This document shows positions 15,718 to 40,947 of a DNA stretch of 43,626 bases, in pieces. The notes below the pieces were generated by a model, which was given only the letters and a program-made list of their open reading frames with translations, did not search any database and was not told the origin of the DNA. This stretch comes from an uncultured bacterium (GTDB taxonomy: Bacteria > Planctomycetota > UBA8108 > UBA1146), in the NCBI GenBank assembly GCA_913056395.1, contig CAJXMG010000023.1, positions 1 through 43,626 on the forward strand, read 5' to 3'. The translations under genes were made by a program, and so were the position numbers. Position 1 is the first letter of the stretch; every line of letters starts with the position of its first letter.

Positions 15718-15720
15718 TCT

Positions 15721-16155: not shown

Positions 16156-16206
16156 GTTTCCTCCTGTTTTATTTCCGGGCCAATCAGCCCTCTCTCTTTT
16201 TTTTGA

Positions 16207-17421
16207 TCAACCACTGTTGAACTGCAACAGAGGCAGCAGCACGGCCAGAATGATGAAAGACACCACCACGGCGAGCAGGACGATGATGATCGGCTCGATC
16301 ATCGCCGTCAGTTTTTGGATCGCCAATTCGATCTCCTCTTCGTAGGTTTCGGAGATTCGGTTGAGCACCGATTCCAACTCACCACTCTGTTCTCCCACGG
16401 CGATCATGTAGCCCACCATCGGCGGGAAGAGGGGAGACTTCTTCAGGGGAGTGGAGATGTCGGCACCTTCGACGATTCGTTCAGCAATTTCGGCAATCGT
16501 TTTTGACATCACCGCATTGTTCACAACCTTGCCGACGATGTTCAGCGAGTCGAGAGCGGGCAAACCGCTCTTGAGCAGGGTGGCAAGAGTCACGGTGAAA
16601 CGGGAGATGGCGGATCTTTGCAGAAGGGTTCCCAGAACAGGGACCTTCAGCAATACACGGTCGTAGGCGAATCGCCCTTTCTCGGTTTTCTTCAGTCCTT
16701 CAAGGAAGAGCAGGAATCCGAGAAGAGCTCCGAGACCGACCAACCAGTAGGCCTTGAACCAGTCACTGATCATAATCAGTACTTCGGTGGCCCACGGCAG
16801 GGCATTGTCTTTCTGAACCAGCATCTCCGTGATTCTTGGGACGACGAAAGTCATCAGGAAGATGACCACGCCGAGTCCAACCACCATCATGATGGCGGGG
16901 TAGGTCAGTGCCGCAGAAAGCTTTCCACGCAGACTGGCCTGTTTTTGCAGATATTCAGAGAGGCTGTACAGAATCTCGTCCAGGTTTCCACTCGCCTCAC
17001 CGGCTCTCACCATATTGATGTAGAGATCACTGAAAACGGAGGGGTGAAGGCTCATGGCATCCGCGAGACCTGCACCGGCGACGATGCGTTCACGGACATC
17101 CCTGAAGATGACTTCCAGGCGTTTTTCTTCGATCTGTTCAACGAGAACATTCAGGGCTTCCGAGAGATGAACCCCGGAGCCGAGCAGAGTGGAGAACTGT
17201 CGTGTCAGGATCGCCAGACTGCGAATGTCGACTTTTCGTTCGATGCGGAAGTTGAGAAGGCTGGTGGATTTTTTGCCGACCGCTTCGACCCGCTCCATCT
17301 CCGTGACGCGAAGTTGCTGATGACGCAACTTGTCACGGGCTTCTCGAGCCGTATCGGCATCGATGTTGCCCTTGGAATGGCGACCGCGTTGGTCGATGGC
17401 CTTGTAAGAGTAAATCGGCAT
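16207..17421 (-). CDS. gspF: T2SS inner-membrane platform protein GspF
   Basis: Polytopic core of the assembly platform, contacting GspE. 404 residues, the normal length. ATG 17421 has AAGGA 7 bases upstream. Two homologous T2SSF domains are visible: residues about 70-190 (LAILTRQFSTLLGSGVHLSE to ASLRGKLSAALTYPAIM) and about 270-395 (RFTVTLATLLKSGLPALDSL to ELAIQKLTAMIEPIIIVLLA). Three membrane segments: about 170-190, 220-240 and 375-400. The start MPIYSYKAIDQRGRHSKGNI is the family opening. 22 bases follow gspE. Confidence 0.95.
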   Translation of the reverse strand: MPIYSYKAIDQRGRHSKGNIDADTAREARDKLRHQQLRVTEMERVEAVGKKSTSLLNFRIERKVDIRSLAILTRQFSTLLGSGVHLSEALNVLVEQIEEKRLEVIFRDVRERIVAGAGLADAMSLHPSVFSDLYINMVRAGEASGNLDEILYSLSEYLQKQASLRGKLSAALTYPAIMMVVGLGVVIFLMTFVVPRITEMLVQKDNALPWATEVLIMISDWFKAYWLVGLGALLGFLLFLEGLKKTEKGRFAYDRVLLKVPVLGTLLQRSAISRFTVTLATLLKSGLPALDSLNIVGKVVNNAVMSKTIAEIAERIVEGADISTPLKKSPLFPPMVGYMIAVGEQSGELESVLNRISETYEEEIELAIQKLTAMIEPIIIVLLAVVVSFIILAVLLPLLQFNSG

Positions 17422-17443
17422 CGGAAATCCTTCAGTTTCTACT

Positions 17444-21471: not shown

Positions 21472-21654
21472 GGCATTTCCTCTCTCTTCATCGGCCGGGG
21501 GAGGTTCGGCCTTGGGTAATTTCGGGACTTTTTTCCTGAATCGGCGAAAACAGCTCTTCCTGGGCTGTTCGTCGCACTTGGGTGGTCAAGCGTGCCCTCT
21601 TCCTGGGAGAGACGATCCCACTTGGGGAAGCCTGAGCCGTTCCCCCTCATTTTA

Positions 21655-21670
21655 AGCAAATCAAATGCCC
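21655..21670 (-). promoter_or_regulatory. Putative sigma-54 promoter of gspD-J
   Basis: Minus strand reads GGGCATTTGATTTGCT: GGCA in the -24 half and a perfect TTGCT in the -12 half, GG to GC spacing 12. Predicted start near 21644, giving a leader of about 170 bases before gspD. Confidence 0.65.
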
Positions 21671-21716
21671 GTCCATGGCAACTGGGGAAGTTCTCCAACT
21701 TTATTTGGGGAAAGGG

Positions 21717-21736
21717 GTTACGGAGATTCCGGTAAC
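21717..21736. promoter_or_regulatory. Dyad upstream of the gspD promoter
   Basis: GTTACGGA-N3-TCCGGTAAC, an inverted repeat with one unpaired G, lies 47-66 bases upstream of the -24 element. Position and symmetry fit an enhancer-binding protein site, but the sequence differs from the TAAR-N17-TTTATGA element, so a different activator is possible. Confidence 0.45.
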
Positions 21737-21775
21737 GTCTCGAAAGAGGCTTTTCAGCCGATCTGGGGTGAAGTG

Positions 21776-21793
21776 TGTTGTGAAATCGAACAC
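21776..21793 (+). repeat. 18-base element shared with the gspK upstream region (copy 2)
   Basis: TGTTGTGAAATCGAACAC, matching 17 of 18 bases of 2471-2488. It lies 106-123 bases upstream of the gspD -24 element, but in the opposite orientation relative to transcription compared with the gspK copy. Possible shared operator for the two halves of the T2SS. Confidence 0.4.
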
Positions 21794-21886
21794 TTTGGGA
21801 GGGGTGCCCCTGGCGCGGACTTGGGAATTACCGGAACTCGGGTAGCGGGGGAGTCGGCGAGGTTCGCAGGCGTCGGTGGCAGGGGC

Positions 21887-22663
21887 TCAAAAATTTTCCC
21901 GCTGGTCCAGTTCCTGAAGCAATTTTTCTGCTTCGGGCCAGAGGTGCCGGGGAATACGGATCAACAATGAGTTCGTGGGCTCATTCACCACCACCCGAAT
22001 CGGCTGGCCACCCCGATCTTCCCAGCGATCGCTCAGCAACTGTTCGAGAATGGCAGCCCGCAGATACCGCGCTTTCCAGACCTTCAGCGCAGGTCCTTCA
22101 TCGTTGGCGGGTGGGCGCTGATCAGAACTCTCAAGAATTTTCAGGTAATGCCGGAGGCGCTCATTGGAGGCGCAGGTCATGACGATGCTGCGAGTTCTCG
22201 GTGAGGCGACAAAATTGCTGTAGCGATCGAGAAGATCCAGGTTCTTCTCTTTTCGATCCGCTTCAGCCCGGAGGATGCGAATCCCCTCCTCCGGTTCCAG
22301 ATGTTGCAGGTGAACCACTCTCATGACCGGTTTAGGTCGTGGAGGTTCGGCGAGTGGCTGATGGGTGACCCAATAGGCTCTGGGTTGGCGAATGTCTCCC
22401 ACCGGTTTGACGTACAGGCCCGATTGATTCAGCACGGTTTCCAGCAGACTTCGGTTTTCCGAAGCGATCCGAAGTGGGTTCAGTACACGGACAGGGGTAT
22501 TGCCGATAACCGGGTGCTCGTGGGCGATGGGGAGTCCGGTGATCACAGACCACCCCTGCAGGACACTTGCGGCGGGCAGGGTCCCCTGGGGCAGAATGTC
22601 ACCGGTCTTTTCGGGGAAGGGCATCAAGAGAAGAATGGAAAGGCAATACCCGAGAGGATTCAT
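21887..22663 (-). CDS. Secretin N-domain-like periplasmic protein without a barrel
   Basis: 258 residues from ATG 22663, chosen for AAGGAG six bases upstream and a hydrophobic N-terminus (NPLGYCLSILLLMPFPEKTG) that looks like a signal peptide. The body resembles secretin N1/N2-type ring-building domains: MRVVHLQHLEPEEGIRILRA with ASPRTRSIVMTCASNERLRH, then KVWKARYLRAAILEQLLSDR with VNEPTNSLLIRIPRHLWPEA. This is the pattern VxxLxxxxA...DxxTNSLxI seen in GspD. No N3-barrel region follows; the gene ends there. It lies between the activator gene (stop 22782) and gspD, same strand. It may assist or mimic the secretin ring, or be a remnant of a duplicated gspD. Function not established. Confidence 0.6.
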   Translation of the reverse strand: MNPLGYCLSILLLMPFPEKTGDILPQGTLPAASVLQGWSVITGLPIAHEHPVIGNTPVRVLNPLRIASENRSLLETVLNQSGLYVKPVGDIRQPRAYWVTHQPLAEPPRPKPVMRVVHLQHLEPEEGIRILRAEADRKEKNLDLLDRYSNFVASPRTRSIVMTCASNERLRHYLKILESSDQRPPANDEGPALKVWKARYLRAAILEQLLSDRWEDRGGQPIRVVVNEPTNSLLIRIPRHLWPEAEKLLQELDQRENF

Positions 22664-22781
22664 GGGATCTCCTTTCCTGGCCTGCAAATCTCTGTCGCTG
22701 CAGGTCCAACGCGGTGATGGTCTTCAACTTCGACAATAACAGATTTTCAACAGACGATGGGGAATCGAGTAGGGTTCCGTC

Positions 22782-24623
22782 TCAATCCGTCATGTTTTTC
22801 AGTCGGGAGTACAGGGTCGATCTTTCGATCCCCAGAATCTGCGCGGCTTTCTTCTTGTTCCCGCCAGCGTATTCAAGAACCCGGAGAATGTGCTCACGTT
22901 CCAGATCCTTGAGGGGGACCGGTTTCCAGCTCTCCTTTGATGAGGTGCTTCGACTTTGACCGGGTGAGAGTCGCAAGTCCTCGCCCGCGATTTGAGCTCC
23001 ATCCGAAAGGATCGCTGCGCTCTCAAGCAGATTGCGCAGTTCGCGGACGTTTCCGGGAAATGCATGATCCTCCAGCAAGGAGAGCGCTTCCTCAGAGAGG
23101 GTCTTTCGGGGTCTCTGTTTGTCAGAGAACTGATCGAGGAAGTGATTGGCAAGGAGAGCGACATCGCCACTCCGGTCTCGCAGAGGAGGTACCTTTACTT
23201 CGAGGACAGCCAGACGGAAGTACAGGTCTTCCCTGAAGTTTCCACTGCTTACTTCAGATTGAAGATCCCGATGAGTGGCGGCGATCAATCGTATGTCGAC
23301 CTCGATGGATGTGTTGCTGCCGACCCTCTCAAGACAACGGGTTTCCAAAAGCCGAAGCATTTTTGATTGTGCCGATTCGGGAAGTTCTCCGATTTCGTCG
23401 AGAAAAACCGTTCCCCCATCCGCGGCTTCAAACTTGCCGATTTTGCGACTGTCAGCTCCTGTGAAGGCACCCTTCTCATGACCAAAAAGTTCACTTTCGA
23501 CCAGATGGGGTGGAATGGCTGCACAGTTGATGGTGACAAAAGGAGCGGCGGCACGGTTTCCCTGGAAATGAAGTCCACGGGCAACCAACTCCTTGCCGGT
23601 TCCTGTCTCGCCCATGATGAGGACTGTTCCGGAAGTGGGTGCGACCTTGTGAATGAATTTTCGCACTTCTTCGATGGCTGGGGAGGAGCCGATGATCGGG
23701 TGTGTATCCAGAACAGACTGAACCAGGTCCACTTTCTCCTGTTGCAGTTCGTCGAGTTCGGCGTTGAGTGACAGACCTGCTCCCATCGTGGCTGCAGCGG
23801 TTCCGCTCGCCCAGAGTTCGGCCTCACCCAGAGGGTGGGATTCACCATCGATCCGGTCGAGATAGAGAATTCCACGCAGGGATTTCTCGATAAAGATGGG
23901 AGCTGCGATCACGCTGCGAATCTCATCTCCGGTCACACTGCGGCGGTCTTCGAAGCGGGGATCACTGCTGGTGTCTTTGGAAAGGACTGCCCTGCGACTG
24001 CGCAGTAATTCGCTGAGTATCGTTTGGCTGAGGACGAACCCCTGAAGAGGTACCCCAATCCTTGACCAGGCGGTCCGGCACAACCATTGATCCTCCTCCT
24101 GAATCAGGATCGCACCCCGGTCCGCCTCGAGTCCCGAAACCAGTCGACGCAGACCTTCGTCAAGGGTGTTGGCGTCGGAGAAACCCTGTCCGAGCAAGGG
24201 GGCGGCCTGATCCAGAGCTTTGAGGATGCGCCGCATCTGTATTTCGGAGAAGGAATCGGGTTCAGCGGATTTGGAGTCGAGGATCTGAGTCTGATTGGCG
24301 GATTCTTCGACGGTTTGAACCAGGGTTTCGACGACGATTTCAGTGTCACCGATTCCGATGTGCTGGCCAGGGTACAACAGTTGTTCGCGGACAGGATCGC
24401 CAGAGACGTAGGTTCCATTGGACGAGTCGAGATCAGTGATTTGCCAGCCGGCTTCCGTCAATTTCAAACGGGCATGGACACGGCTGGCTGCAGGGTCCTC
24501 CAGAGTAATATCCACCGATTCGTCCCTGCCGATCAGGATTCCCTCTGTTCTCGCCTTGTCATTGGAGATGTCATGACGCAGGGAGTTCTTGTCAGGAGCG
24601 ATGACATGAATTCGCGTTTTCAT
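22782..24623 (-). CDS. FHA-GAF sigma-54-dependent transcriptional activator
   Basis: 613 residues. FHA domain at about 28-98 (ILIGRDESVDITLEDPAASR, DLDSSNGTYVSG), which binds phosphothreonine. GAF-like sensor at about 150-282. AAA+ domain with Walker A GETGTGKE (338-345), the sigma-54 contact loop GAFTGA (385-390) and Walker B TVFLDEIGE. C-terminal Fis-type helix-turn-helix (about 575-612, NKKKAAQILGIERSTLYSRL). There is no receiver domain. ATG 24623 overlaps the kinase stop by one base; an in-frame TTG at 24644 is less likely. Being coupled to a Ser/Thr kinase, it is probably controlled by phosphothreonine recognition, which is known for FHA activators in myxobacteria. It may drive the sigma-54 promoters in this window. 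Confidence 0.92.
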   Translation of the reverse strand: MKTRIHVIAPDKNSLRHDISNDKARTEGILIGRDESVDITLEDPAASRVHARLKLTEAGWQITDLDSSNGTYVSGDPVREQLLYPGQHIGIGDTEIVVETLVQTVEESANQTQILDSKSAEPDSFSEIQMRRILKALDQAAPLLGQGFSDANTLDEGLRRLVSGLEADRGAILIQEEDQWLCRTAWSRIGVPLQGFVLSQTILSELLRSRRAVLSKDTSSDPRFEDRRSVTGDEIRSVIAAPIFIEKSLRGILYLDRIDGESHPLGEAELWASGTAAATMGAGLSLNAELDELQQEKVDLVQSVLDTHPIIGSSPAIEEVRKFIHKVAPTSGTVLIMGETGTGKELVARGLHFQGNRAAAPFVTINCAAIPPHLVESELFGHEKGAFTGADSRKIGKFEAADGGTVFLDEIGELPESAQSKMLRLLETRCLERVGSNTSIEVDIRLIAATHRDLQSEVSSGNFREDLYFRLAVLEVKVPPLRDRSGDVALLANHFLDQFSDKQRPRKTLSEEALSLLEDHAFPGNVRELRNLLESAAILSDGAQIAGEDLRLSPGQSRSTSSKESWKPVPLKDLEREHILRVLEYAGGNKKKAAQILGIERSTLYSRLKNMTD

Positions 24624-26341
24624 GGCGTGCCTGCCAACCGCCAATCGCGAAGGATGCGTTTTCTGTTCAGCTCGCCCTCGATGACCACCCTGTCCACTTT
24701 GGTATTCCAGCCGGTGAGATCTCCTTCAAGCCTCATACCCGGTGCACCTGAAGGGATCGCGTTCGATGGAATCTGGAAAGTCATTCGCAGGAGAGGGTCT
24801 TCGCTATTTTGGGATTGGACCTGCAAGCGAAAACGATCCCTGTCTGGATCGCTGGGCTCAAGGCGTTCCAGGGTGAGCTGATGGTCGATGCCCTCACGCA
24901 GGAAACCGTTGCGTACAAGTTGTTCGATTTCGATGGGTACCGGTGATCCATGTTGGAGAACTTCGATGGTTGGATCAGCAGATCTCCCAATCGAGAGTCC
25001 GATACGCCAGCGGTTGCCCGGCTGATCCGGATCCGCTGCGACCTGTAACTCCAGATCCGGATTTCCCAGCGTTCGCAATCCAGTCAACTCCCAACGATCG
25101 AGTCTGGACATGTAGGGGAAGCGAACCACCTCTGGGGCATTGGCCCAACGAAGCTGGCCTTCACGAATATTGGGTCTGATCTGATTTCTTGCACCAGAGT
25201 TTTTGGAAACGGAGACAGGACGGAAGAACCGCTCTGTTTCGACGTTATTGAACTCAAAGGTGAGCTGGTCTACGGAGCCCTTCTCAGCCAGCAGGTCTCC
25301 AAAAGAAGCGTCCACCTTTGCCAACTGCTGGCGGTAGGGAGTCAGCAGGTTGCCCGGCAGAACTGACCCGCCGATGACTGCCAGAATGAGAACCACCACT
25401 GCAGAGGCGAGAAGTCTCGTCGATCGGGGAGGAGCCTGTTCAGGGTCAATTCGCTGGGTGATCGCCTGAAGCCTGGTCAGAACTCCCGAGTGGTTCTGCG
25501 GTCGCTGTTCAGGAGCTTTATGGAGCATCGACTGAATCAGTTCAGCAAACTCTGCATCGACTGTGGGCAAAGCCTCAACGATGTCGGGAACCGGAGCATT
25601 CACATGGGCGATCAACAGATCCATTCTTGAGTCCCGGGTGTAGGGCGGCTCACCGGTGAGAAGGTGGTAGAGAGTTGCACCCAAACTGTAGATGTCGGAG
25701 CGTTCATCGGTGCCATGTCCCTGAACTTGTTCAGGGGAGCAATACTGGGGAGTACCAACGACCTCATTCCCCTCGGTGGCATCCTCTTCGATGGAACCGG
25801 CAAGTCCGAAGTCGACCAGCTTGATATTGCCGAGGGCATCGACGATCAGGTTGGAAGGCTTGATATCGCGGTGAATGATGCCCTGATTTCGTGCTTCTTC
25901 CAGAGCACGTGTGGCTGAGATCGCAACCTTGAGAACTTCTTCAATGGGCAACTTTCCACGCTCATTCAATTCTTCCTCAAAGCTGGGACCGGGAAGAAAT
26001 TCCATCACCAGATAGGGAAGATCATCCTCATCGTGAATTGCGTGGATCTGTCCAATGTTGGGATGATTGACCGCAGCGATGGCTCTGGCTTCGGCGAGGA
26101 ATTTGTCGCGAATGTCGTGGTGATCCTTCAGTCGTGGATGGACCCGCTTGATGGCGACAGTTCTCTGCAAGGAGGGATCATGGGCCCGATAGACGACGCC
26201 CATTCCACCCTCACCGATCTTCTCTTCGACCAGAAACTGACCGATGTGGTCAAAGCGGGGGGTCTGCATCGGTTGGGTGTCATCCGCTGAAAGGCTGTCC
26301 GATTCGGGGGAAGCGGGGCTGAAGAGAATGTCGGATTTCAT
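24620..26341 (-). CDS. Membrane-anchored PknB-type Ser/Thr protein kinase
   Basis: 573 residues. ATG 26341 has GGAGG 7 bases upstream. Kinase domain at about 34-290 with all main motifs: glycine loop IGEGGMGVVYRA, catalytic Lys65 (VAIKRV), HRDIKPSN (His157-Asp159), DFG (177-179), activation segment VGTPQYCSPEQ and SDIYSLGATLYHLLTG. One membrane segment (about 309-331) separates it from an extracytoplasmic part (about 240 residues) with beta-rich sequence and no PASTA repeats; it may be a sensor. The stop overlaps the start of the FHA activator, so the kinase and its likely substrate or reader are made together. TIGR00300 gene is divergent, 148 bases away; no clear promoter seen between. Confidence 0.93.
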   Translation of the reverse strand: MKSDILFSPASPESDSLSADDTQPMQTPRFDHIGQFLVEEKIGEGGMGVVYRAHDPSLQRTVAIKRVHPRLKDHHDIRDKFLAEARAIAAVNHPNIGQIHAIHDEDDLPYLVMEFLPGPSFEEELNERGKLPIEEVLKVAISATRALEEARNQGIIHRDIKPSNLIVDALGNIKLVDFGLAGSIEEDATEGNEVVGTPQYCSPEQVQGHGTDERSDIYSLGATLYHLLTGEPPYTRDSRMDLLIAHVNAPVPDIVEALPTVDAEFAELIQSMLHKAPEQRPQNHSGVLTRLQAITQRIDPEQAPPRSTRLLASAVVVLILAVIGGSVLPGNLLTPYRQQLAKVDASFGDLLAEKGSVDQLTFEFNNVETERFFRPVSVSKNSGARNQIRPNIREGQLRWANAPEVVRFPYMSRLDRWELTGLRTLGNPDLELQVAADPDQPGNRWRIGLSIGRSADPTIEVLQHGSPVPIEIEQLVRNGFLREGIDHQLTLERLEPSDPDRDRFRLQVQSQNSEDPLLRMTFQIPSNAIPSGAPGMRLEGDLTGWNTKVDRVVIEGELNRKRILRDWRLAGTP

Positions 26342-30383: not shown

Positions 30384-30522
30384 GGAAGGGCCTCGTCATT
30401 CTGTGAATTCAGTGGAAATCCGTACTGGAACCCTTGCATGGTGCCACTTCTGTCCTCTGGCAGGTATTGAAAACCGGGGAGCCAAAATGAGTGAAATCGC
30501 TACAAAATTACCTCATATGAGA

Positions 30523-30537
30523 CCCCATTTGGGGTAA
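30523..30537. repeat. 15-base palindromic repeat CCCCATTTGGGGTAA (copy 1)
   Basis: Exact copy of 37325-37339. A looser form, CCCCACTCGGGGT, is at 2495-2507. Each lies 56-89 bases upstream of a TAAR-N17-TTTATGA element. Could be a protein site or a small hairpin. Confidence 0.4.
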
Positions 30538-30652: not shown

Positions 30653-30668
30653 AGGTACGCCATTTGCA
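30653..30668 (+). promoter_or_regulatory. Putative sigma-54 promoter of the HK/RR operon
   Basis: AGGTACGCCATTTGCA: GG and AC-G of the -24 half and a perfect TTGCA -12 half, with GG to GC spacing 12. Predicted start is near 30679, about 55 bases before the kinase ATG. Confidence 0.65.
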
Positions 30669-30733
30669 GTCATCCCTGAAGCGACCCGCTGATTCACCGC
30701 ATGGCTGCGGTGCCGTGAGAGAGGATGGAATCC

Positions 30734-32503
30734 ATGAGTTCCGAAACGGGATTCTGGAACTTCAGGTTCAAACTGATTCTGCTGATTGCCCTGCTGATGG
30801 CCGGCACCCTTTCGGTGCAGGCGGTCATTCGCAATCACAGCATTCAGGTGATCCTGGATGGCACGGAAGAGGTGGCTGCAGGGATTGCCAATGAGGCGGC
30901 CCAGAAGATGCTGATCGCCACCTCAACCAGCGATCCTGCGGAGTGGGATAGCGAAGCGGCGGAGTCCGGTTCCGATTTCTTTGAGAACTCCAGCCAGGGA
31001 CAAAATGTGCTGGCCTTCAATACCGAGCGAATCATTCAACTTTCCAACGACTTGAGAGCCGGATTGATGGCTCGCAGGGCTTTGGAGTCGAATGTTCCGT
31101 CGCAAAAGGGTGAATACGTTCAAGCCGTCAATATGAATGAGTTGCTTCTTGACCTGCTCGTAGCCTTTCAGCCCGACCTCAACAGCGGGGTTCTGGAAGG
31201 AGTCCGGAAAAGTCTGCAATACTACGACAGTTCTTCAGGACTTGTTTCCTATCGAGAAGAGCTCAAGGCAACAGACGTTCCTGCGTCGGTGAAATTGCCT
31301 GACGGAGCTTATCTGGCAGAGTTTTCCGTGAGTTTTGCACCCCATGAAAGTCAGGCAAACCTTCACTCTCCAAACTCATCGCTTCAGCAATTGTCAGGCT
31401 TTTTTGAAATCTCTGACCGTAATGAGCCAGCCTCTGAGGATTCTGCTGGCCTTGGGGATCTTCCGGTGATCGGCGCTGAGTTCCGTGGAGATCCGGATTC
31501 TCTTTCCATCGATCTGGCGGCTCCTCTGGAAGAGTTGGCAGAGCTGGTACGTGAAACCAATGAACGGGATCTTCTCGCCACTTTGTCCATCTTCATGATC
31601 GGATTGGCATTGGCGTGGATCCTTGGCAGCCGTCTCGTCCAACCGGTGACAGAGGTGGTGGAGGGAATGCAAAAGGTTGCGGCTGGGGATATGAGCGTTC
31701 GACTCTCCGGTGAGCGCGACGCAGAGTTTGCTCTTATCAATGGCCAGTTCAATGAAATGGTTCAGCAGTTGGACAATGCCCGTTCTCTGGAGCGGGGTCT
31801 GGAGCACCGCGAGCGCCTGCAGACGATGGGAGATCTCGCTGCAGGTGTTGCCCACGACATTCGCAATCCCCTGAGCGCCATCTCGATGATCGTCGGCCGC
31901 CTCGGATTCGACTACGCCCCCACCGACGCCAAAGAGCGTGAAGAGTTCCTCGGCTATACCAAAGACATCAAGGATGAGATTGAGCGACTGAACAATCTCG
32001 TCTCGGACTTCTTGCAACTGGCGCAGCCCAATTCCCAAGAGGCGGTGCCCTGCCAGGTGGGAGGAATCCTTGAGGAACTGCAGCGACTTCTCGACAAGGA
32101 AGCTGCAGATCAGGGCGTCTCCATCGAACTGGATGTGCAGGAGGATCTTGCGGAAACACTCTGGAATCCGGTGGAGGGGAAAAGTGCATTCCTCAACGTG
32201 GCGATGAATGCCATTCAGGCGATGCAATCCAACGGAGGTTCTCTGGCGATTCAGGCGCGCAGTGACGATCACTGGATTGTCGTGTCTTTCAAGGACAATG
32301 GCCCGGGCATCGCCCGGGAAGACTGTGAGCAAGTGATGTTGCCCTACGTCACCCGCAGGCCTGGAGGAACCGGACTCGGTCTCGCCATCGCCCGTCGGGT
32401 TGCTGAGCGTTACGGGGGGCGCCTCGAACTGACTTCCCAGATTGCTGTGGGAACCGAAGTCCGTTTCATGTTGCCGGTGAGCACAGAAGAAGGGCGGGCG
32501 TGA
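30734..32503 (+). CDS. NtrB-like membrane sensor histidine kinase
   Basis: 589 residues from ATG 30734 (GAGAGG about 10 bases upstream; ATG 30725 is also in frame but sits on that site). Two membrane segments (about 12-32 and 280-302) frame a periplasmic sensor of some 245 residues with no recognised domain. Then a HAMP domain (about 303-355), HisKA with MGDLAAGVAHDIRNPLSAIS (phospho-acceptor His about 374), and HATPase with N-box LNVAMNAIQAM, DNGPGI and GGTGLGLAIARRVAERYGG. This is the class of kinases paired with NtrC-type regulators. The stop overlaps the regulator start (TGATG). It should phosphorylate the next gene product. Signal unknown. Confidence 0.93.
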   Translation: MSSETGFWNFRFKLILLIALLMAGTLSVQAVIRNHSIQVILDGTEEVAAGIANEAAQKMLIATSTSDPAEWDSEAAESGSDFFENSSQGQNVLAFNTERIIQLSNDLRAGLMARRALESNVPSQKGEYVQAVNMNELLLDLLVAFQPDLNSGVLEGVRKSLQYYDSSSGLVSYREELKATDVPASVKLPDGAYLAEFSVSFAPHESQANLHSPNSSLQQLSGFFEISDRNEPASEDSAGLGDLPVIGAEFRGDPDSLSIDLAAPLEELAELVRETNERDLLATLSIFMIGLALAWILGSRLVQPVTEVVEGMQKVAAGDMSVRLSGERDAEFALINGQFNEMVQQLDNARSLERGLEHRERLQTMGDLAAGVAHDIRNPLSAISMIVGRLGFDYAPTDAKEREEFLGYTKDIKDEIERLNNLVSDFLQLAQPNSQEAVPCQVGGILEELQRLLDKEAADQGVSIELDVQEDLAETLWNPVEGKSAFLNVAMNAIQAMQSNGGSLAIQARSDDHWIVVSFKDNGPGIAREDCEQVMLPYVTRRPGGTGLGLAIARRVAERYGGRLELTSQIAVGTEVRFMLPVSTEEGRA

Positions 32504-33927
32504 TGCGCAAGTCCGGACGAATTCTCGTCGCCGACGATGAAAAGCCCCAGCGTGAGATTCTGGTTTCCTCACTCGAGAAGCGGGGATACGAGGTGTGTGG
32601 TGCAGGAGACCTCGCCACAGCTCTGAAACTCTTCGAGCAGGGGCTTCAGGGGCAGAATCCCTTTAACACTGTGGTCACCGACCTGCGCATGCCGACCGAC
32701 AAGGAAGGTCTGGAACTGCTGATGCAGGTTCGTGACAGGGATCCCCTTTGCGAAGTGATCCTCGTCACCGCTTACGCTTCCAGCGAAGTCGCTTTCCAGT
32801 CGGGAGAGGCTCGGGCCTTTTCCTTCCTGGAGAAGCCTCTCGATTTCGAGAAGACGATTTTCACCATCGATTCTGCGGTGGAAAAATCAAAACTGGCTCA
32901 CGAGAATGCCAGCCTGCGGCAGATGATTCACGGACAGAACAGTTTTTGTGGACTGGTCGGCCGCGATGCTCGCATGCAACAACTGTATCAGTTGATCGAC
33001 CGCGTCTCGGCGACGGATGCGGTATGTCTGATTCGTGGTGAAAGTGGCACCGGTAAAGAACTGGTGGCAAGGGCGATCCACGAATGCAGCAATCGGAACA
33101 GTCAACCTTTCGTGCCCATTAATTGCGCAGCGATTCCCCCCAACCTGATCGAAAGCGAATTGTTCGGTCATGAGAAGGGGGCTTTCACCGGTGCAGCCGG
33201 TCGTCGTTCCGGACGCTTTGAAGACGTGGGGGAGGGAAGCCTCTTCCTCGATGAAATCGGTGCCATGGCACTTGATCTGCAACCGAAGCTTCTGCGTGCA
33301 CTTCAAGAGATGGAATTTTCAAGAGTGGGTTCCGTCGAGATGATTCCCTTCCGCGGAAGAATCATTTCAGCGACCGCCCGTGATCTGGAAGAAGCGGTTC
33401 AACAGGACGAATTCCGTGAAGACCTCTTCTTCAGGCTCAATGTTGTTGCCCTGGAAATTCCGCCATTGCGTGAACGATTGAGCGACCTTTCGTTACTGGT
33501 GGATCACTTCCTCGCCCGCGGAAGTGTGCGCCACGAGCGTCACTTCGAAGGAGTGACAGCAGAAGTGATGGAAGCCTTTGAAGCCCATTCATGGCCCGGT
33601 AATGTTCGAGAATTGGAAAATTGCCTGGAGCGAATGATGGTTCTCAGCGAGACCTCTCAGCTGAATGCAGATCTGCTGCCTCCGGGTTTGAGGAACTCTT
33701 CCGGGTCCACAGCAGTTGTCACCGATACTCTTTTGCCGCTGCCCAATGACGGTCTGATTCTAGAGGATTTGGAGAAAGACCTGATTCTGCAGGCTCTCCT
33801 GCGCTCGGACGGGAAGTTGGAGCCGGCAGCGAAGATGTTGGGCATCACCTACAAGACCCTGCAATACCGGATCAAGAAGTACCGCCTGCGGGAAACTTCT
33901 GAAGGAGCGGGTCAGGAAAATGAATAA
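32503..33927 (+). CDS. NtrC-family sigma-54 response regulator
   Basis: 474 residues. Receiver domain 1-125 with ILVADDE, phospho-acceptor Asp60 (VVTDLRMP), VTAYAS and the conserved Lys (FLEKPLDF). AAA+ domain: Walker A GESGTGKELVARAIHE (from residue 179), GAFTGA (226-231), Walker B SLFLDEIGAM, FREDLFFRLNVVALEIPPLR. C-terminal Fis-type HTH (about 425-470, LEPAAKMLGITYKTLQYRIK). ATG 32503 overlaps the kinase stop; GTG 32500 is the alternative. The best candidate to bind the TAAR-N17-TTTATGA elements, since its own operon has one. The cognate promoters by this logic are those of gspK, this operon and the HEAT-PDZ operon. Confidence 0.95.
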   Translation: MRKSGRILVADDEKPQREILVSSLEKRGYEVCGAGDLATALKLFEQGLQGQNPFNTVVTDLRMPTDKEGLELLMQVRDRDPLCEVILVTAYASSEVAFQSGEARAFSFLEKPLDFEKTIFTIDSAVEKSKLAHENASLRQMIHGQNSFCGLVGRDARMQQLYQLIDRVSATDAVCLIRGESGTGKELVARAIHECSNRNSQPFVPINCAAIPPNLIESELFGHEKGAFTGAAGRRSGRFEDVGEGSLFLDEIGAMALDLQPKLLRALQEMEFSRVGSVEMIPFRGRIISATARDLEEAVQQDEFREDLFFRLNVVALEIPPLRERLSDLSLLVDHFLARGSVRHERHFEGVTAEVMEAFEAHSWPGNVRELENCLERMMVLSETSQLNADLLPPGLRNSSGSTAVVTDTLLPLPNDGLILEDLEKDLILQALLRSDGKLEPAAKMLGITYKTLQYRIKKYRLRETSEGAGQENE

Positions 33928-33966: not shown

Positions 33967-34071
33967 ACGTGAATCGAGTATAAGTATCCAAAACATGACT
34001 GCGATAAACGGTGGTCATGAAACATGGCAGTTCACCACCCCGGAAGGGTGGTCCTGCAAAGGAGATTCAGA

Positions 34072-37000
34072 ATGAATACGGCAACCAAAGCGGGAGTGAT
34101 CACACTTCTGATTGCGGGTCTGTGCATCCTCGTCATCCAGATCATGGGTCCCTCGGACCCCACGATGGATCCGAGTGTTGTTTCCGAGGTGACAGAGACG
34201 GTCAGGGAGGAGGTTCGAACTGAGCCGAAACTTCCCGAAAGACCGAAGACTCTGGTCTCGGTTCAGGGCATCGTTCGTGATTCCAATGGCACTCCCCTTC
34301 CGAAGGCGCGCGTCATGGTCTCCCGTTATCAGGGAGGGGATGGCGTGGGGCTTTCCCGGGTCGATGAAACGGTTGCCGGAAACGATGGCCGTTTTGGATT
34401 CGATGGCCTGATCCCCGGTATGTACCGTTTTCAGGCGGAGTTGAGAGGATTCCAGGGCGGTCGTCAGGAAACGACTCTCGTGGGTGATGCGAACGTTGCC
34501 CAGGAAGAGATCGTTCTGGTCATGGCTTCCGGCATGAGCATCAGCGGTCGCATTCTTGACCCGACCGGGGCACCCGTTGCCGGTGCACAGGTTGCCGCTT
34601 TCCAGGAGCGGGTTGAGCAGGATGCTCCCCTGCAAACGCGTCTTCAGGTTCTCTTGAATCTGGAAGAGATGCAGCAAGAGAATGGAATCGTTGCTGTTTC
34701 CGATGACAACGGACGCTACGAAATCGTCGGACTTGAAAACATCTCCTATCGATTGCAATCGGTCGCCAGTGGATTTTCTCCTGCTGAGAAGCGCTACATT
34801 GCCGCAGGCAGTGTCGATGTGGATTTCAATCTTGAGTTGGGAGGCATTCTTTCAGGGGTCGTTTCCGATCCAGGTGGGGCTGTGGTTTCTGAAGCGCTGG
34901 TGGAAATTTACCGCCAGACCGGGACCCTCGACATCATCGAAATCATTCAGGAGCGTGCCTTCCCCCCTCTGGCAAGTCGTGTGACGGATGCCTCCGGTCA
35001 GTTTGAGTTCAACGAGTTGGGTGGATCTTCCGAATTCCGCCTGGTGGTTCAGGCAGATGGTTATCAGCCACGCCAGTTTGAGAAGCTGACAGTTCTTCCA
35101 GGAGCTGCCGAAAGAGTCGATGTCATTCTCGAGCAGGGACTGGTCATCGAAGGAACTGTTTATGATCCGGATGGAAATGCCCTCGCCGGTGCCCGTTGCA
35201 AAATCAATCCGATGGGAACCCGGACAGAAGGCCCACCCATCGAATTGACCGATGACGGGTTGGAGACGGATGAGAGTGGAAACTTCCGTTTTGATACCCT
35301 CGATGAGTTGGACTACCGACTGGTCATCAGCTTCCCCGACTACGCAACCCATCAGCAGTTGCGAATCCGTCCCGGTGGTGAGCCCCTCAATATCCAGTTG
35401 ACGGAAGGAGCGGCTATTAGCGGTGGCGTCTTCGATGCAGAGACCTCTGCTCCGATCGCGGGTGCAATGGTCATGGTCAATGACGTCGCAGATGTGAAAA
35501 AGAGTGCGATCACAGATGCATCAGGGCTTTATTACGTGCGTGGAGTCACCGAACAGCGTCGCCCCATCGCTTTCATGAATGTGGATGCCAAGGGTTACAT
35601 GCGCTCCGGCAATGTGGAAGCCAGTGTGACCGAGGGTACCGAGACCACCGGGCAGGATTTCTACCTGCAAAGAAATGGTGTGGTCCGCGGGGTTTGCCTC
35701 GATGCCAGCGGCAGACCGCTCCAGGGTGTTTCAGTCAGTGCTCGCAAGATGCACTCCGAACAGAACCCTGTGGTCGTCAATGCAGCTCCTCCGGTGACCA
35801 GCGGTGCGGATGGCACCTTTGAAGTGGTGGAAGTGTCACCGGGTACCGGCATGTTTGTCGAGGGAACTCATTCCCAATATCTGACCTCCCAATCGGACAC
35901 CTTTGATCTCGTTGCAGGTGGATCTGTCGAGAATCTGGTGTTGACGATGAAGATCGGTGGAGCCATCAGCGGCATCGTCATGGATGAATCGGGTGTTCCG
36001 CTCGAGGGTGCCGTGGTTGCCGTTCGGGATGAGTGGTTGGGCGATGTGAACCCTGAATCCCTTCCCAACAAATCGACGACGGATGGCGCAGGCCAGTTCA
36101 CCCTGAGAAGTTTGCCGGCGGGTTACCACAACCTGATCTGTTCCAATGATGGTTACCTGACCGTCGAGATGAGTGAGATCGCTGTTGAAGAAGGCATGAA
36201 CACCGCCAATCTTGAGTTGAGATTGACCCGTGGTGCCCTCCTTGAGGGGATCGTTACCGATTTGACCGGCGAGCCTGTTGAAGGCGCACGGGTGGTGGCG
36301 ATCGACACCAGTGATGGCTTGCGCAAGATTTCCAAAAACTCGGACCTCACCGGAAAATTTGTTTTCGATAATCTGGGTCGATTCCCGGTGGACATTGCCG
36401 TTGAAAAGAATGGTTTCGCGGATGTACGTCTTTTCGAGGTGCCGGTGAATGGCCAGCCGATCACGATCCAATTGGAAGCTCTCGGCGGTATGCGCGGGAC
36501 GGTCTTGCAGGAGGACGGTAGTCCCTTGAGAGCGTTCAGTGTTTCTCCGCGCATCATCGAAGGTGACCGTGAGTTGACCAAGGTCCCTGCGAGGACTTTC
36601 CAGTCCGAAGACGGCTTCTTCCAGTTTGATGGACTTGAGCCCGGTCTCTACAACGTGATCATCGGTGCACCCGGCTTTGCCCAGGCAGTGATAGAGAATG
36701 TCGCAGTCAACTCCAACCAGTGGGTGGATTTGCAGACAGTGCGTCTGGGTCAGGGCGGAAGAGTCCTGGGCCAGATCATCGATGCCAACACCAATCAACC
36801 TGTTGCAGGTGCAAAGGTGACGGTCATCGGTGGAAGTCGAAATTTCCTCACCAGCACCATTCAAGCCAGGGGTGGGGGACGCAAGGGCCAGGTGATGACC
36901 GGTCCCGACGGCTACTTCGAATTCATCGGCTTGTCCGTACCGCAGGTGGATTTGAAGGTTGAGCACCGGGCGTACATCACGGAAGTGGTCGATGACGTCC

Positions 37001-37311
37001 TCAGTGGTACTGCTGATCTGGTGGTCGCCATTGGGACCGGAGGCATCATCGAGGGCCGGGTGGTCGATTCGAATGGTGAGTTCGTCGCCGGCGTTCAGGT
37101 TTTGCTTTCCGGTGGAGTGAAAGGGACCGACTCCAGAACGCAGACGGACCGCAAGGGCTTCTTCACCTTCCCGGGTTTGCCGACGGGTGATTACACGGTG
37201 CGGGTGACCAACTTTGGAACTGCCACCCAGAAGATTCCCTTGAGCAATGCCCCGACCTTCGAGGTGCGGTTGCAGGCGGGGACCACCGAGTTCGTCGAGT
37301 TTGAGCTGTAA
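34072..37311 (+). CDS. Large anchored protein with about eleven carboxypeptidase-regulatory-like repeats
   Basis: 1079 residues from ATG 34072 (AAGGAG 8 bases upstream; ATG 34024 lacks one). A single membrane segment near the N-terminus (about 7-26, VITLLIAGLCILVIQIMG) followed by a Glu-rich linker, then a long array of beta-sandwich units, each opening with a motif such as VQGIVRDSNGTPLPKARVMV, ISGRILDPTGAPVAGAQVAA or IEGTVYDPDGNALAGA and continuing with a GxFxFxGLxPGxYxL strand. I count eleven such openings. These CarboxypepD_reg/Ig-like domains bind partners or space out surface structures; no catalytic domain is visible. The transmembrane segment puts the array outside the cytoplasm. A strong terminator follows. 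A hairpin (34034-34052) lies just before the ribosome site. Confidence 0.8.
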   Translation: MNTATKAGVITLLIAGLCILVIQIMGPSDPTMDPSVVSEVTETVREEVRTEPKLPERPKTLVSVQGIVRDSNGTPLPKARVMVSRYQGGDGVGLSRVDETVAGNDGRFGFDGLIPGMYRFQAELRGFQGGRQETTLVGDANVAQEEIVLVMASGMSISGRILDPTGAPVAGAQVAAFQERVEQDAPLQTRLQVLLNLEEMQQENGIVAVSDDNGRYEIVGLENISYRLQSVASGFSPAEKRYIAAGSVDVDFNLELGGILSGVVSDPGGAVVSEALVEIYRQTGTLDIIEIIQERAFPPLASRVTDASGQFEFNELGGSSEFRLVVQADGYQPRQFEKLTVLPGAAERVDVILEQGLVIEGTVYDPDGNALAGARCKINPMGTRTEGPPIELTDDGLETDESGNFRFDTLDELDYRLVISFPDYATHQQLRIRPGGEPLNIQLTEGAAISGGVFDAETSAPIAGAMVMVNDVADVKKSAITDASGLYYVRGVTEQRRPIAFMNVDAKGYMRSGNVEASVTEGTETTGQDFYLQRNGVVRGVCLDASGRPLQGVSVSARKMHSEQNPVVVNAAPPVTSGADGTFEVVEVSPGTGMFVEGTHSQYLTSQSDTFDLVAGGSVENLVLTMKIGGAISGIVMDESGVPLEGAVVAVRDEWLGDVNPESLPNKSTTDGAGQFTLRSLPAGYHNLICSNDGYLTVEMSEIAVEEGMNTANLELRLTRGALLEGIVTDLTGEPVEGARVVAIDTSDGLRKISKNSDLTGKFVFDNLGRFPVDIAVEKNGFADVRLFEVPVNGQPITIQLEALGGMRGTVLQEDGSPLRAFSVSPRIIEGDRELTKVPARTFQSEDGFFQFDGLEPGLYNVIIGAPGFAQAVIENVAVNSNQWVDLQTVRLGQGGRVLGQIIDANTNQPVAGAKVTVIGGSRNFLTSTIQARGGGRKGQVMTGPDGYFEFIGLSVPQVDLKVEHRAYITEVVDDVLSGTADLVVAIGTGGIIEGRVVDSNGEFVAGVQVLLSGGVKGTDSRTQTDRKGFFTFPGLPTGDYTVRVTNFGTATQKIPLSNAPTFEVRLQAGTTEFVEFEL

Positions 37312-37324
37312 ATTTTCCGGTTTT

Positions 37325-37339
37325 CCCCATTTGGGGTAA
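37325..37339. repeat. 15-base palindromic repeat CCCCATTTGGGGTAA (copy 2)
   Basis: Exact match to 30523-30537. It lies 13 bases after the stop of the repeat-domain gene and just before the terminator, 89 bases ahead of the TAAR-N17-TTTATGA copy C. Confidence 0.4.
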
Positions 37340-37343
37340 GCAA

Positions 37344-37383
37344 GGGAGCATTCGGGGCAGAACCCCCCGAATGCTCCCTTTTT
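37344..37383 (+). terminator. Rho-independent terminator after the repeat-domain gene
   Basis: A perfect 14-bp stem, GGGAGCATTCGGGG and its complement, with a 7-base loop and a TTTTT run. Strong and correctly placed 32 bases after the stop. Confidence 0.95.
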
Positions 37384-37441: not shown

Positions 37442-37474
37442 AATTTGGAGAAGTCGCTTCTGGTTCGTGCGAAT

Positions 37475-37490
37475 TGGTCCACTGTTTGCA
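37475..37490 (+). promoter_or_regulatory. Putative sigma-54 promoter of the HEAT-PDZ/lipoprotein operon
   Basis: TGGTCCACTGTTTGCA: TGG and C of the -24 half, perfect TTGCA -12 half, GG to GC spacing 12. Predicted start near 37501. Confidence 0.65.
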
Positions 37491-37674
37491 ATAATCGAAG
37501 CGGAAAGAAACTTTGAAATCGGGGCGAGGGATTCCTCCTGACCATTACGTCTGAATTGGATGTTCACCTTGCTGGTTCCTGTGAATCAGCAGGGAGCAGG
37601 AAAGAGTCCCTTTCAGGATTCAGCGGAATGAATCAGCCCTATTGTCGATCCACGGATTGGTGAGCCGTTTTCCC

Positions 37675-38838
37675 ATGAACGAAGATTCAAAATTGAGTGC
37701 CCGGAATCCTGGTCCCCCTCCTCAGAGCCCCAGCGGGAAAAGATCCGCCGCGGCCCTCCTTCCTGGAGGTGTTGTGGCTGTGGTCGCCATTTTTCTGCTT
37801 TCCGGGATTCCGGCACTTTCTCTCCATGCTCTTCAGGATCCGCCAGTGGTGCAAAAGCCAGTGGTGCCAAAACCAGTGGATTCTCCAAAAGAGGATTCTG
37901 ACAAGAGTGGGGGAGTGACTCCGGCGAAGCAGGTCTCTGCTGAAGCGGATCGCTGGATCGAGCAGTTGGGGTCTTCCGATTGGGAAAAGCGTGAAGAAGC
38001 CGCTGCCGAGTTGAAAAAACTGGGGGGAGCAGCGAAATCCGCTCTGCAGAAGGCCCTCAAAAATGCCGATCCAGAAGTGGCCTCCAAGGCGGAAGAGCTG
38101 CTGGAAACTCTGGAAAGCCCCGTGATTCGTGAAGTCGGTCGACGTGGATCAGAACCCGGTGGACGGCGCAGAATCATCTCCGGTCCAGGAGGGATCGTCA
38201 CGCTGGAATTGGGCGGGGATTCTGGCAGCCGCAGAAAAGTGGAGATCGGTTCTGCCCCCGGCGAAGTGGAAGGGGCCCAGGACGAGATACTCAAGGAGAT
38301 CCGTGCAATCGAAAAGCAGATGGAGCGCGAGTTCAATCGGGGATTTACTCGTGGTTTTCCCCGTGGTTTTCCTGGGCGAATTCCTTTTCCCGATATGGAA
38401 GATCTGTTCGATATTCCCGCTGGCGGAGGCATCCGCTGGCAGGGCAGCACCACTCTGGGTGGCCAATCGAGTCGCAATGAATATCTGAATGGGAAGTTGT
38501 CCCTGAGCATCGAAACCAGGGATGACCTGATCACCATCGAGCCGCTGGGACTGGTGCTTGAATCGGTTCACCCGGTTCTCAAGGTTCACCTGCCGCAAGC
38601 CGCCGAAGCAGGGTATCTGATCAACAACGTACGTCCCGGCAGCCCCGCCGAAGCGGCAGGGTTGCGTCAGTGGGACCTTCTTCTCCGTGATGGAGAACTG
38701 AAACTTCGCAATGAAAATGAACTGGCTACAGCCTTTCGCATGCCCCGACCGGATCGTCCTGTCGAGGTAATTCGTCAGGGGCAGAAAATCCTCCTCCCGA
38801 AAACTGAAAAAGTTCCTGCTGGACAGGAAAAGAAATGA
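37675..38838 (+). CDS. Membrane-anchored HEAT-like/PDZ protein
   Basis: 387 residues from ATG 37675; no strong ribosome site, and an in-frame GTG at 37660 or TTG at 37642 is possible. One membrane segment (about 29-50, LPGGVVAVVAIFLLSGIPAL). Then a Pro/Lys/Val-rich linker (VVQKPVVPKPVDSP), a short HEAT-like helical unit (WIEQLGSSDWEKREEAAAEL to ADPEVASKAEELLETL), a Gly/Arg/Phe-rich linker (RGFTRGFPRGFPGR), and a C-terminal PDZ domain with AGYLINNVRPGSPAEAAGLR and WDLLLRDGELKLRNENELAT. No protease triad, so not a DegP-like enzyme. The stop overlaps the ATG of the lipoprotein gene (ATGA), so the two are coupled and may work together. Confidence 0.75.
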   Translation: MNEDSKLSARNPGPPPQSPSGKRSAAALLPGGVVAVVAIFLLSGIPALSLHALQDPPVVQKPVVPKPVDSPKEDSDKSGGVTPAKQVSAEADRWIEQLGSSDWEKREEAAAELKKLGGAAKSALQKALKNADPEVASKAEELLETLESPVIREVGRRGSEPGGRRRIISGPGGIVTLELGGDSGSRRKVEIGSAPGEVEGAQDEILKEIRAIEKQMEREFNRGFTRGFPRGFPGRIPFPDMEDLFDIPAGGGIRWQGSTTLGGQSSRNEYLNGKLSLSIETRDDLITIEPLGLVLESVHPVLKVHLPQAAEAGYLINNVRPGSPAEAAGLRQWDLLLRDGELKLRNENELATAFRMPRPDRPVEVIRQGQKILLPKTEKVPAGQEKK

Positions 38839-40823
38839 TTGAGAGAGCCCGTATGAAGATCACCAACGACCGCAAATTGCTGTTGCTGCTGGCAGCATTG
38901 TTGTTGCCCGCCTGTATCCATATCCACCCCTCGGGGGTGGCCCTCGCCGAAAATCCGGGTGAAGGGGTCTCAACACCGACTTCCTTCGAATTGTCCGAAG
39001 GGGATGATTCGGATGATCGTCGTCAAATGCGCGGAATGCCTCCGGTGGAAGAAATCCGCCGACTTCAGGGCGAGATCGCACAACTGAAAGAGCAGATCGC
39101 CCAGCTGCAGTCGATGCTCGCAGAGAGGGGCGGCATGCGTGCACGTCCCGGTGGAGCTGCCAGCAGGGTCGAAGAAGTACCGATGCTGGGTGGGCTGTTT
39201 ATCTCCGAATCGAGGGGCATGGGGGATGACGGACATGGCCATCATGAGCACGGACATGAGCACGGACATGATGCAATCCGCTGGATGGAGCTGGCTGAAG
39301 AAATGCGGGGCCAGCGAGGTGGTGGACACGACCACGACAGACACGACCGCGCTGAATGGCATTTCGACGAGCGTCATTTTGAGGGCGATTTGCCCATGAT
39401 TTCGATGGAGTTCCGTGATGAACCCCGCTTCGGCAGAAGGGGAGAGCAATTCCGTCAACGTCAGGGTCGTGATCGGGGGATGAATCGCTGGGAGATGTCC
39501 GGACGCAGGCCCATGCGCGGCATGAACCCCCGTATGCGGAATCTCACTCCGCGCTGGAATCAGGGAATGACACCTGTCATGCCCCGTGGACTCGCTGCCC
39601 GTCAGGGTATGGGAGCGATGCGCGGGGGTGGCTTCCCCAGGGGTGTGATTATGGGTCGAACCGGAGCCATGCCCGGGATGCAGCCGTGGGGACCTCAGGG
39701 AGGAATCGTTGTCTTCGAGCCGGGCATGGGGCACGGCGAAATGATGTTCCATGGAGCGGATGGAAATTTCGCCATCTTTGGTGAAACCGATGCCGGTCAT
39801 TCCCGATCCTGTGGCTCTGAAGGGTGCGGCGAGGAAAAGGAGTGCCCTTACCTGAAGAGTCAGTGTGAGGGAGATTCCGACTGCTGTGGCTCTGAAGAGT
39901 GCGGCGAAGAAAAGGAGTGCCCTTACCTGAAGAGTCAGTGTGAGGAAGATTCTGATTGTTGCGGTTCTGAAGAGTGCGGCGAAGAAAAGGGATGCCCTTA
40001 CATGAAGGGTCAGTGTGAGGAAGATTCCGACTGCTGTGGCTCTGAAGAGTGTGGGGCAGAAAAGGAATGCCCCTACATGAAAGAGCGTGACTCAGAGTGT
40101 TGTGGTGACGACGGTTGCTGCAAGGGTGAAAAGGAATCGGAGTATCACGGCCATGACCATGGTGGCTTCGGGGTTGAAGAAAAATCGGCAACCAAAGTCA
40201 TCATGATCCGCAAGGAATCAGGTGATTCTGGCGATATGTGGGGAGAAGTTCTCGATGCCAGAGTTGAAGCTTTTGATTCCGCCGATTCCGTTTATGAAAA
40301 CTCTCTGGGTAGCCGCCAGATGATCATTGAAATGATCTCGGACTCCCTTCCTGAAGATCTGGATCTCAAAGGTGATGTGGATATCCAGATTCATACCGAC
40401 ATCGAAGGCGCCGATCTTCCTCCAGGAATGGAGGAGGAGCTGAAAGAGATGCTCGAGAAGATGATGCTCGAGGTCGAAGTGGAGATGAAAGAAACGGGCA
40501 AGTCTGGCAAAAAGTGGACCGTTGAGAAGGAGTCGCAGAAAGAGTCGAAAAAGAAAGCGACCAATAAGAAGAAGGCTGCCAGTAAGAAGCAGGCAGCCCA
40601 GAAAAAGCAGGCAGCCCAGAAAAAGCAGGCAGCCCAGAAAAAAGCTGCTGAGAAGAAGTCTGCCGACAAGAAGAAGTCCTTGAAGAAGGATTCCAGATCA
40701 AAGGACTCGAAGAAGAAGCAGAACCGGAAAAAGGGTAACGGTGCGGTCAAAAAGGCCGAATCGGGCAGTTCCCTCGAAATCCGGGTCCGTGAGCTCACCG
40801 GATTGGGAGTTCCCGTCTTTTAG
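38835..40823 (+). CDS. His/Met/Cys/Lys-rich lipoprotein, candidate metal-binding surface protein
   Basis: 662 residues. Signal peptide with lipobox LLPAC (Cys27). Then a Leu/Ile coiled coil (about 72-100, VEEIRRLQGEIAQLKEQIAQ), a His-rich stretch (about 132-188, with HGHHEHGHEHGHD), and a Met/Arg/Gly-rich stretch (about 199-295). Next come four tandem 25-residue units (about 326-425) of the form CX4CX5CX6CX5C, each unit with five Cys. After that a CC pair region and HGHDHGG, an acidic middle, and a Lys/Ala-rich tail (about 565-645) with AAQKKQ repeats like histone H1. I know no family with this combination. His, Met and Cys suggest copper, zinc or similar soft metal binding, which is inference. 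It is coupled to the upstream HEAT-PDZ gene, and a strong terminator follows. Confidence 0.7.
   Translation: MIERARMKITNDRKLLLLLAALLLPACIHIHPSGVALAENPGEGVSTPTSFELSEGDDSDDRRQMRGMPPVEEIRRLQGEIAQLKEQIAQLQSMLAERGGMRARPGGAASRVEEVPMLGGLFISESRGMGDDGHGHHEHGHEHGHDAIRWMELAEEMRGQRGGGHDHDRHDRAEWHFDERHFEGDLPMISMEFRDEPRFGRRGEQFRQRQGRDRGMNRWEMSGRRPMRGMNPRMRNLTPRWNQGMTPVMPRGLAARQGMGAMRGGGFPRGVIMGRTGAMPGMQPWGPQGGIVVFEPGMGHGEMMFHGADGNFAIFGETDAGHSRSCGSEGCGEEKECPYLKSQCEGDSDCCGSEECGEEKECPYLKSQCEEDSDCCGSEECGEEKGCPYMKGQCEEDSDCCGSEECGAEKECPYMKERDSECCGDDGCCKGEKESEYHGHDHGGFGVEEKSATKVIMIRKESGDSGDMWGEVLDARVEAFDSADSVYENSLGSRQMIIEMISDSLPEDLDLKGDVDIQIHTDIEGADLPPGMEEELKEMLEKMMLEVEVEMKETGKSGKKWTVEKESQKESKKKATNKKKAASKKQAAQKKQAAQKKQAAQKKAAEKKSADKKKSLKKDSRSKDSKKKQNRKKGNGAVKKAESGSSLEIRVRELTGLGVPVF
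39810..40109 (+). repeat. Four tandem 75-base coding repeats (Cys-rich units)
   Basis: Units start at 39810, 39885, 39960 and 40035, exactly 75 bases apart, each encoding five cysteines. The third and fourth are more diverged at third codon positions, and the last breaks down near 40085. The repeats are within the lipoprotein gene and are not CRISPR. Confidence 0.9.
40591..40644 (+). repeat. 18-base coding repeats (AAQKKQ)
   Basis: The string GCAGCCCAGAAAAAGCAG recurs about three times in direct tandem, encoding Ala-Ala-Gln-Lys-Lys-Gln. This is the Lys/Ala-rich tail of the lipoprotein and probably varies in copy number between strains. Confidence 0.8.
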
Positions 40824-40909
40824 CCAAAATGAGAATACAGTTGCAGCCTCATTGACGAGATTTCGTGTGAGAAGCGGGTCCCACATGAAAATTTCAGGTT
40901 GTAATTTTG

Positions 40910-40947
40910 GCCTCCTCCGGACGGTCCGGGGGAGGCTTCTTTTTTTA
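40910..40947 (+). terminator. Rho-independent terminator of the HEAT-PDZ/lipoprotein operon
   Basis: GCCTCCTCCGGAC pairs with GTCCGGGGGAGGC (one G-T pair), tiny loop, then TTCTTTTTTTAT. It lies 86 bases after the stop, just before element copy D. Confidence 0.92.

Follow-up and report, generated by a model that had tools for sequence, protein, structure and literature searches.

The gene at positions 38835 to 40823 of the window (the whole stretch of 43,626 nucleotides analysed here) encodes an exported protein that is best read as an envelope-stress scaffold, polyligand as well as polyelectrolyte, held by a PDZ partner. In our leading reading, to which we give a probability of about 0.4, a two-gene sigma-54 unit under the neighbouring kinase-NtrC pair produces an envelope scaffold that is docked by its PDZ partner and takes up metals and/or oxidants. 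The neighbouring histidine kinase and NtrC-type regulator would switch on the unit through a palindromic enhancer, and probably use the same palindrome on their own promoter. The product of the second cistron would be exported, probably lipid-anchored, and oligomeric through a short coiled coil, the remainder being largely disordered and carrying His, Met and Cys ligand tracts together with polyanionic and polycationic segments. Its conserved hydrophobic C-terminus would bind to the HtrA-type PDZ of a membrane-anchored HEAT-PDZ protein, and the pair would act as an on-demand scaffold that sequesters soft metals and/or oxidants and binds anionic envelope polymers. Within this scheme, lipidation, regulator binding, PDZ docking and metal or redox buffering are the steps that we infer.

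The locus comprises the following features.

30725-32503, + strand: sensor histidine kinase (HAMP, HisKA, HATPase; Pfam and NCBIfam profiles), a neighbour conserved in relatives
32500-33927, + strand: NtrC-type response regulator with a sigma-54 activation domain, the probable activator (profile matches)
34024-37311, + strand: large carboxypeptidase-regulatory-like repeat protein, 11 stretches (profile match; syntenic in relatives)
37342-37380, + strand: intrinsic terminator behind the 34024-37311 gene
37642-38838, + strand: membrane-anchored HEAT-PDZ protein with an HtrA-type PDZ in its C-terminal third; likely start ATG at 37675
38835-40823, + strand: His/Met/Cys/Lys-rich exported protein, 662 aa (ORF; alternative start at 38853)
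40909-40937, + strand: intrinsic terminator, end of the two-gene unit

Across the family the kinase gene is followed by the genes for the NtrC-type regulator, the carboxypeptidase-regulatory-like protein and the HEAT-PDZ protein, and then by the 38835-40823 gene; the regulator is 66-99% identical to its counterparts elsewhere in the family (G010: 55%). Since they are bounded by the terminators at 37342-37380 and 40909-40937, the last two genes, which overlap by ATGA, are taken as a two-gene unit. Sequence comparison gives good support to the gene itself, its synteny, the conservation of the promoters, the shared palindromes and the type of the PDZ domain. The long repeat protein at 34024-37311 keeps its place beside the pair across the family.

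Two promoters and their putative enhancers frame the regulatory proposal.

30509-30536, + strand: a pair of adjoining palindromes, TACCTCATATGAG / ACCCCATTTGGGGTA, upstream of the kinase gene; putative enhancer
30653-30668, + strand: sigma-54 promoter AGGTACGCCATTTGCA of the kinase-regulator genes, the second conserved sigma-54 element
37324-37338, + strand: putative enhancer TCCCCATTTGGGGTA, the same palindrome as at 30522
37475-37490, + strand: sigma-54 promoter TGGTCCACTGTTTGCA of the HEAT-PDZ unit, aligned across 12 family genomes

The 37475 element shows the conserved -24/-12 arrangement with GG/GC spacing of a sigma-54-dependent gene, whereby TGGYCCNNNNTTTGCW would be expected 0.03 times by chance in the window. 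It is kept at 12 of 13 HEAT-PDZ loci, the exception being G001, whose HEAT-PDZ upstream region was not properly located. The kinase-side element, [AG]GG[TA]AC-N5-TTTGC[AT], occurs in 10/11 genomes, and the palindromes next to it are recognisable in all aligned relatives but G005, the one genome in which the element was also missed and in which the kinase start is misplaced. The palindrome TACCYCATNTGRGGTA lies upstream of both promoters, with its core CCCCATTTGGGGTA ~130-150 bp from each; chance alone would give 0.2 matches in the window with at most one mismatch. At 37324 and its counterparts it scores 13-15 of 16 at 9 of the 12 HEAT-PDZ loci and is weak or absent in G009, G011 and G014. In sequence, the two-gene unit thus carries the shared enhancer expected of a target of the adjacent kinase-NtrC pair, the binding itself being a prediction. 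RpoN is encoded in the genome, as are about a dozen proteins with strong matches to sigma-54 activators; most simply, the NtrC-type regulator next door likely drives both promoters, although another activator could do so. The sigma-54 promoter and paired palindromes between 30509 and 30668 imply that the kinase-regulator pair is probably autoregulated. Synteny and promoter conservation together lend strong support to a statement of the first-pass annotation, namely that the gene is coupled to a HEAT-PDZ gene under a sigma-54 promoter. A further candidate element, the local inverted repeat AGAAG-N3-CTTCT near 37450, was dropped, as the alignment does not keep it beyond the nearest relatives.

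The 662-residue protein is built from a series of compositionally distinct blocks, listed here from the N-terminus.

38904-38930, + strand: lipobox-like site LPACIHIHP with HxH right behind the Cys; LPACIHxHP is invariant in 11 aligned sequences
39045-39125, + strand: predicted coiled coil, residues 71-97, helical with confidence in the AlphaFold2 model
39225-39389, + strand: His-rich stretches, residues 131-146 and 165-185
39396-39689, + strand: Met/Arg/Gly-rich block, residues 188-285
39810-40121, + strand: Cys block, residues 326-429, a 75-bp tandem array of three full CX4CX5CX6CX5C units and one degenerate unit
40188-40493, + strand: acidic strand/helix block (TKVIMIR...LPPGMEEELKEML), residues 452-553, partly alignable among relatives
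40500-40754, + strand: Lys/Ala-rich polycationic stretch, residues 556-640
40779-40820, + strand: hydrophobic C-terminus IRVRELTGLGVPVF, a candidate PDZ ligand, conserved in relatives

The ORF and the coiled-coil, His-rich, Met/Arg-rich and acidic blocks described in the first-pass annotation are all present, but its Cys unit count, its lipobox and the position of its Lys tail had to be corrected. Three rather than four units fit CX4CX5CX6CX5C, the fourth reading CX4CX5CX9CC. The DNA copies of the unit are 88-91% identical and their number differs among near relatives, which points to a young tandem array. The histone-like Lys/Ala tail exists as a stretch but is not C-terminal, since the conserved hydrophobic motif IRVRELxxLGVPVF stands behind it. 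As to the label of lipoprotein, the Cys of the lipobox-like LPAC is invariant in the alignment and LspA is encoded in the genome; against this, the lipobox is non-canonical, with a Pro at -2 that the standard PROSITE lipobox excludes, and a competing signal-peptidase-I-like AxA site, whose last Ala is likewise invariant, lies 11 residues past the Cys. Lipidation is accordingly worded here as likely, not certain. The start codon may be 38853 instead of 38835. The composition differs from that of 20 other sampled ORFs of the window (z = +5.3 for Met, +6.0 for Cys, +3.5 for Lys and +1.7 for His). AlphaFold2, run on a shallow alignment of 12 sequences, gives mostly low confidence, the exceptions being the coiled coil, its most confident part, and a few helices; on this model-based evidence, with low confidence resting on those 12 sequences, the protein would be largely disordered outside the coiled coil.

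Searches of Pfam, NCBIfam, PHROGs and PDB sequences returned no family for the protein, in line with the earlier statement that it belongs to none that is recognised; the weak matches obtained, such as a spider-peptide to the Cys block (E 0.15) and Sqt1 (0.01), were set aside as low-complexity or spurious. Searching with the protein recovered relatives from genomes of the same family, and as they are few and mutually related, counts among them are non-independent. The DNA pattern [LF]PACIHxHP picks out 15 stretches in a collection of 84,980 species genomes, 13 of them from MAGs of this planctomycete group (two of these from one MAG; the collection may omit the window's own record), while the matches in Blastochloris and in L062 are spurious, with no protein of such kind at the match. 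All relatives found with the pattern belong to a single marine planctomycete family and lie behind a HEAT-PDZ gene. A dN/dS of 0.17-0.38 against near relatives indicates a real gene under purifying selection. The mean column identity is 26% over the whole protein, whereas LPACIHxHP is invariant in the aligned sequences. The Met/Arg/Gly block, the Lys stretch and the hydrophobic C-terminus recur in eight full members, the last in two forms, GVPV[FL]/GLPIL and NG[RK][IV]VL; His tracts and Cys units vary greatly. The syntenic gene of G010, from another genus, keeps a signal peptide, a coiled coil, a His-rich region and a Cys cluster, and is without the lipobox and the Lys stretch; it has a different C-terminal end, and no sigma-54 site was seen there. 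Contigs of several MAGs (L042/L043, L045/L046, L028, L041, L049, L053) break off within the gene, probably at its repeats; where the group seems to lack it or to have it truncated, part of the cause may lie in assembly. The planctomycete locus is also present on L067 (QNYK01000009.1), a record titled Bacillota, a title that is probably wrong.

Three parts make up the HEAT-PDZ partner: a membrane segment at the N-terminus, a HEAT-like helical region and a PDZ domain at the C-terminus. The closest solved structures to this PDZ are of HtrA type, several with bound hydrophobic C-terminal peptides, the best E of ~0.001 indicating a fold type and not close homology. PDZ domains of the HtrA-like type bind hydrophobic C-termini, and it is hence an economical idea, proposed here, that the second protein docks through its conserved hydrophobic C-terminus (ending GVPVF or GRIVL) as the candidate ligand. 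The partner PDZ is of the same type as those of the HtrA family (AlgW, DegS, HtrA1-3), but unlike in that family no protease domain was detected in the HEAT-PDZ protein, for which peptide docking is a proposal.

Metal or redox buffering is favoured because enrichment in Met and His persists and Cys and His are strongly retained. All 8 full members carrying the motif have raised Met and a His content above the window mean (z 1.4-3.9), and mostly Cys lies above it as well, although the arrangement of the ligands differs. Their type also differs between relatives, the Cys clusters being nearly lost in G006. In near relatives Cys is retained at 50/50 and His at 72/74 positions, versus 91% overall, with Met at the average only; these figures come from codons of three close relatives that share ancestry. 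Binding of soft metals is plausible from such a composition. The same enrichment despite rearrangement, and the same retention of Cys and His, count against a somewhat unlikely alternative in which the protein is a polyelectrolyte or structural scaffold that cross-links anionic envelope polymers, with the anchor, coiled coil, Arg/Met/Gly block, Lys stretch and C-terminus as its conserved parts and with His, Met and Cys incidental to repeat expansion. Acidic and basic blocks do alternate in all members, as that alternative would have it, and it is also helped by the young Cys copies of varying number and by HxH clusters that are enriched in some members only. As to what induces the unit, the proposal of the first-pass annotation that metals alter transcription is without sequence support, since the predicted sensor region of the kinase, for which no Pfam family matched, has no Cys and by eye no enrichment in metal ligands, and no gene for metal transport or efflux turned up among the scanned ORFs of the window; general envelope stress as the signal fits equally well. 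From that earlier interpretation we keep the lack of a family and the coupling to HEAT-PDZ and sigma-54 as supported, and soft-metal binding as plausible.

The Cys-free sensor region, the HtrA type of the partner PDZ and the sigma-54 two-component control with its probable feedback loop would also suit a chaperone or adaptor for envelope stress of the kind of ZraP, CpxP and Spy: a periplasmic holdase, induced by a regulator pair, that handles misfolded proteins together with a PDZ adaptor and for which metals serve as inducer at most. We consider this unlikely, as no similarity to ZraP, CpxP or Spy appears in Pfam or NCBIfam and the protein is modelled as mostly disordered and not as a helical bundle. 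ZraP/ZraSR is alike in its exported protein, its sigma-54 promoter and its kinase-NtrC regulator pair close by, but the regulator here scores higher on AtoC and NtrC models than on ZraR. A dedicated metal-resistance sponge of the SilE/PcoE kind, induced by a specific metal, is very improbable. SilE is reported to be exported, disordered and rich in Met and His (PMC5008109), and the present protein resembles SilE and PcoE in being exported, predicted mostly disordered and His/Met-rich. However, it has no family match, the SilE-type pairs HxxM and MxxH do not exceed chance in any of the full members (in G000, 1 and 1 observed versus about 1.2 and 1.3 expected), no efflux operon is seen nearby, the sensor region of the kinase shows no ligand enrichment, and it adds Cys units, a coiled coil, a Lys stretch and a PDZ partner. 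Bufferins and other Cys peptides modified by MNIO enzymes are likewise exported and Cys-containing, some of them lipidated (PMC12452194). A peptide of that class was rejected, since the 95%-complete genome has no MNIO maturase (PF05114, for which the search was positive in two reference genomes as a control) and the protein matches no bufferin family. With bacterial histone H1-like tails it shares a Lys/Ala-rich low-complexity stretch (a weak NCBIfam match, far below the family cut-off), but it is exported and the stretch is not terminal.

A further reading, which we regard as doubtful, is that of a new kind of envelope buffer, produced when needed under a two-component switch acting through sigma-54. 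From species to species, turnover of repeats would remodel the His/Met/Cys chemistry of this coiled-coil disordered protein, and the anchor, the Lys stretch and the PDZ-docking C-terminus would stay fixed. An orphan exported protein, in a group of marine planctomycetes known from metagenome assemblies, would gain a testable place in a circuit of kinase pair, shared enhancer, sigma-54 and PDZ adaptor. It may also serve as a case of a disordered protein whose architecture and ligand-rich composition remain constant while the type of ligand shifts, which bears on the evolution of disordered metal sponges.

Other sigma-54 elements were seen in the genome. The chaperonin enhancer CTGYCANNNTGRCAG was searched for in the window and not found there. 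The 2.77-Mb genome has it at just three sites, two of them upstream of the sigma-54 promoter of groEL1 (G000:C1:154336-154670; L071, L076), where promoter and palindromes are both present in 14 aligned family genomes, and the third (G000:C3:74866-75965, L116) upstream of a regulator-groES-groEL2 set; this suggests that the chaperonins are under sigma-54 control. Within the window, positions 13776-26341 hold Type II secretion-like genes (secretin, T2SSE, T2SSF, T2SSJ) beside an FHA-GAF sigma-54 activator and a Ser/Thr kinase.
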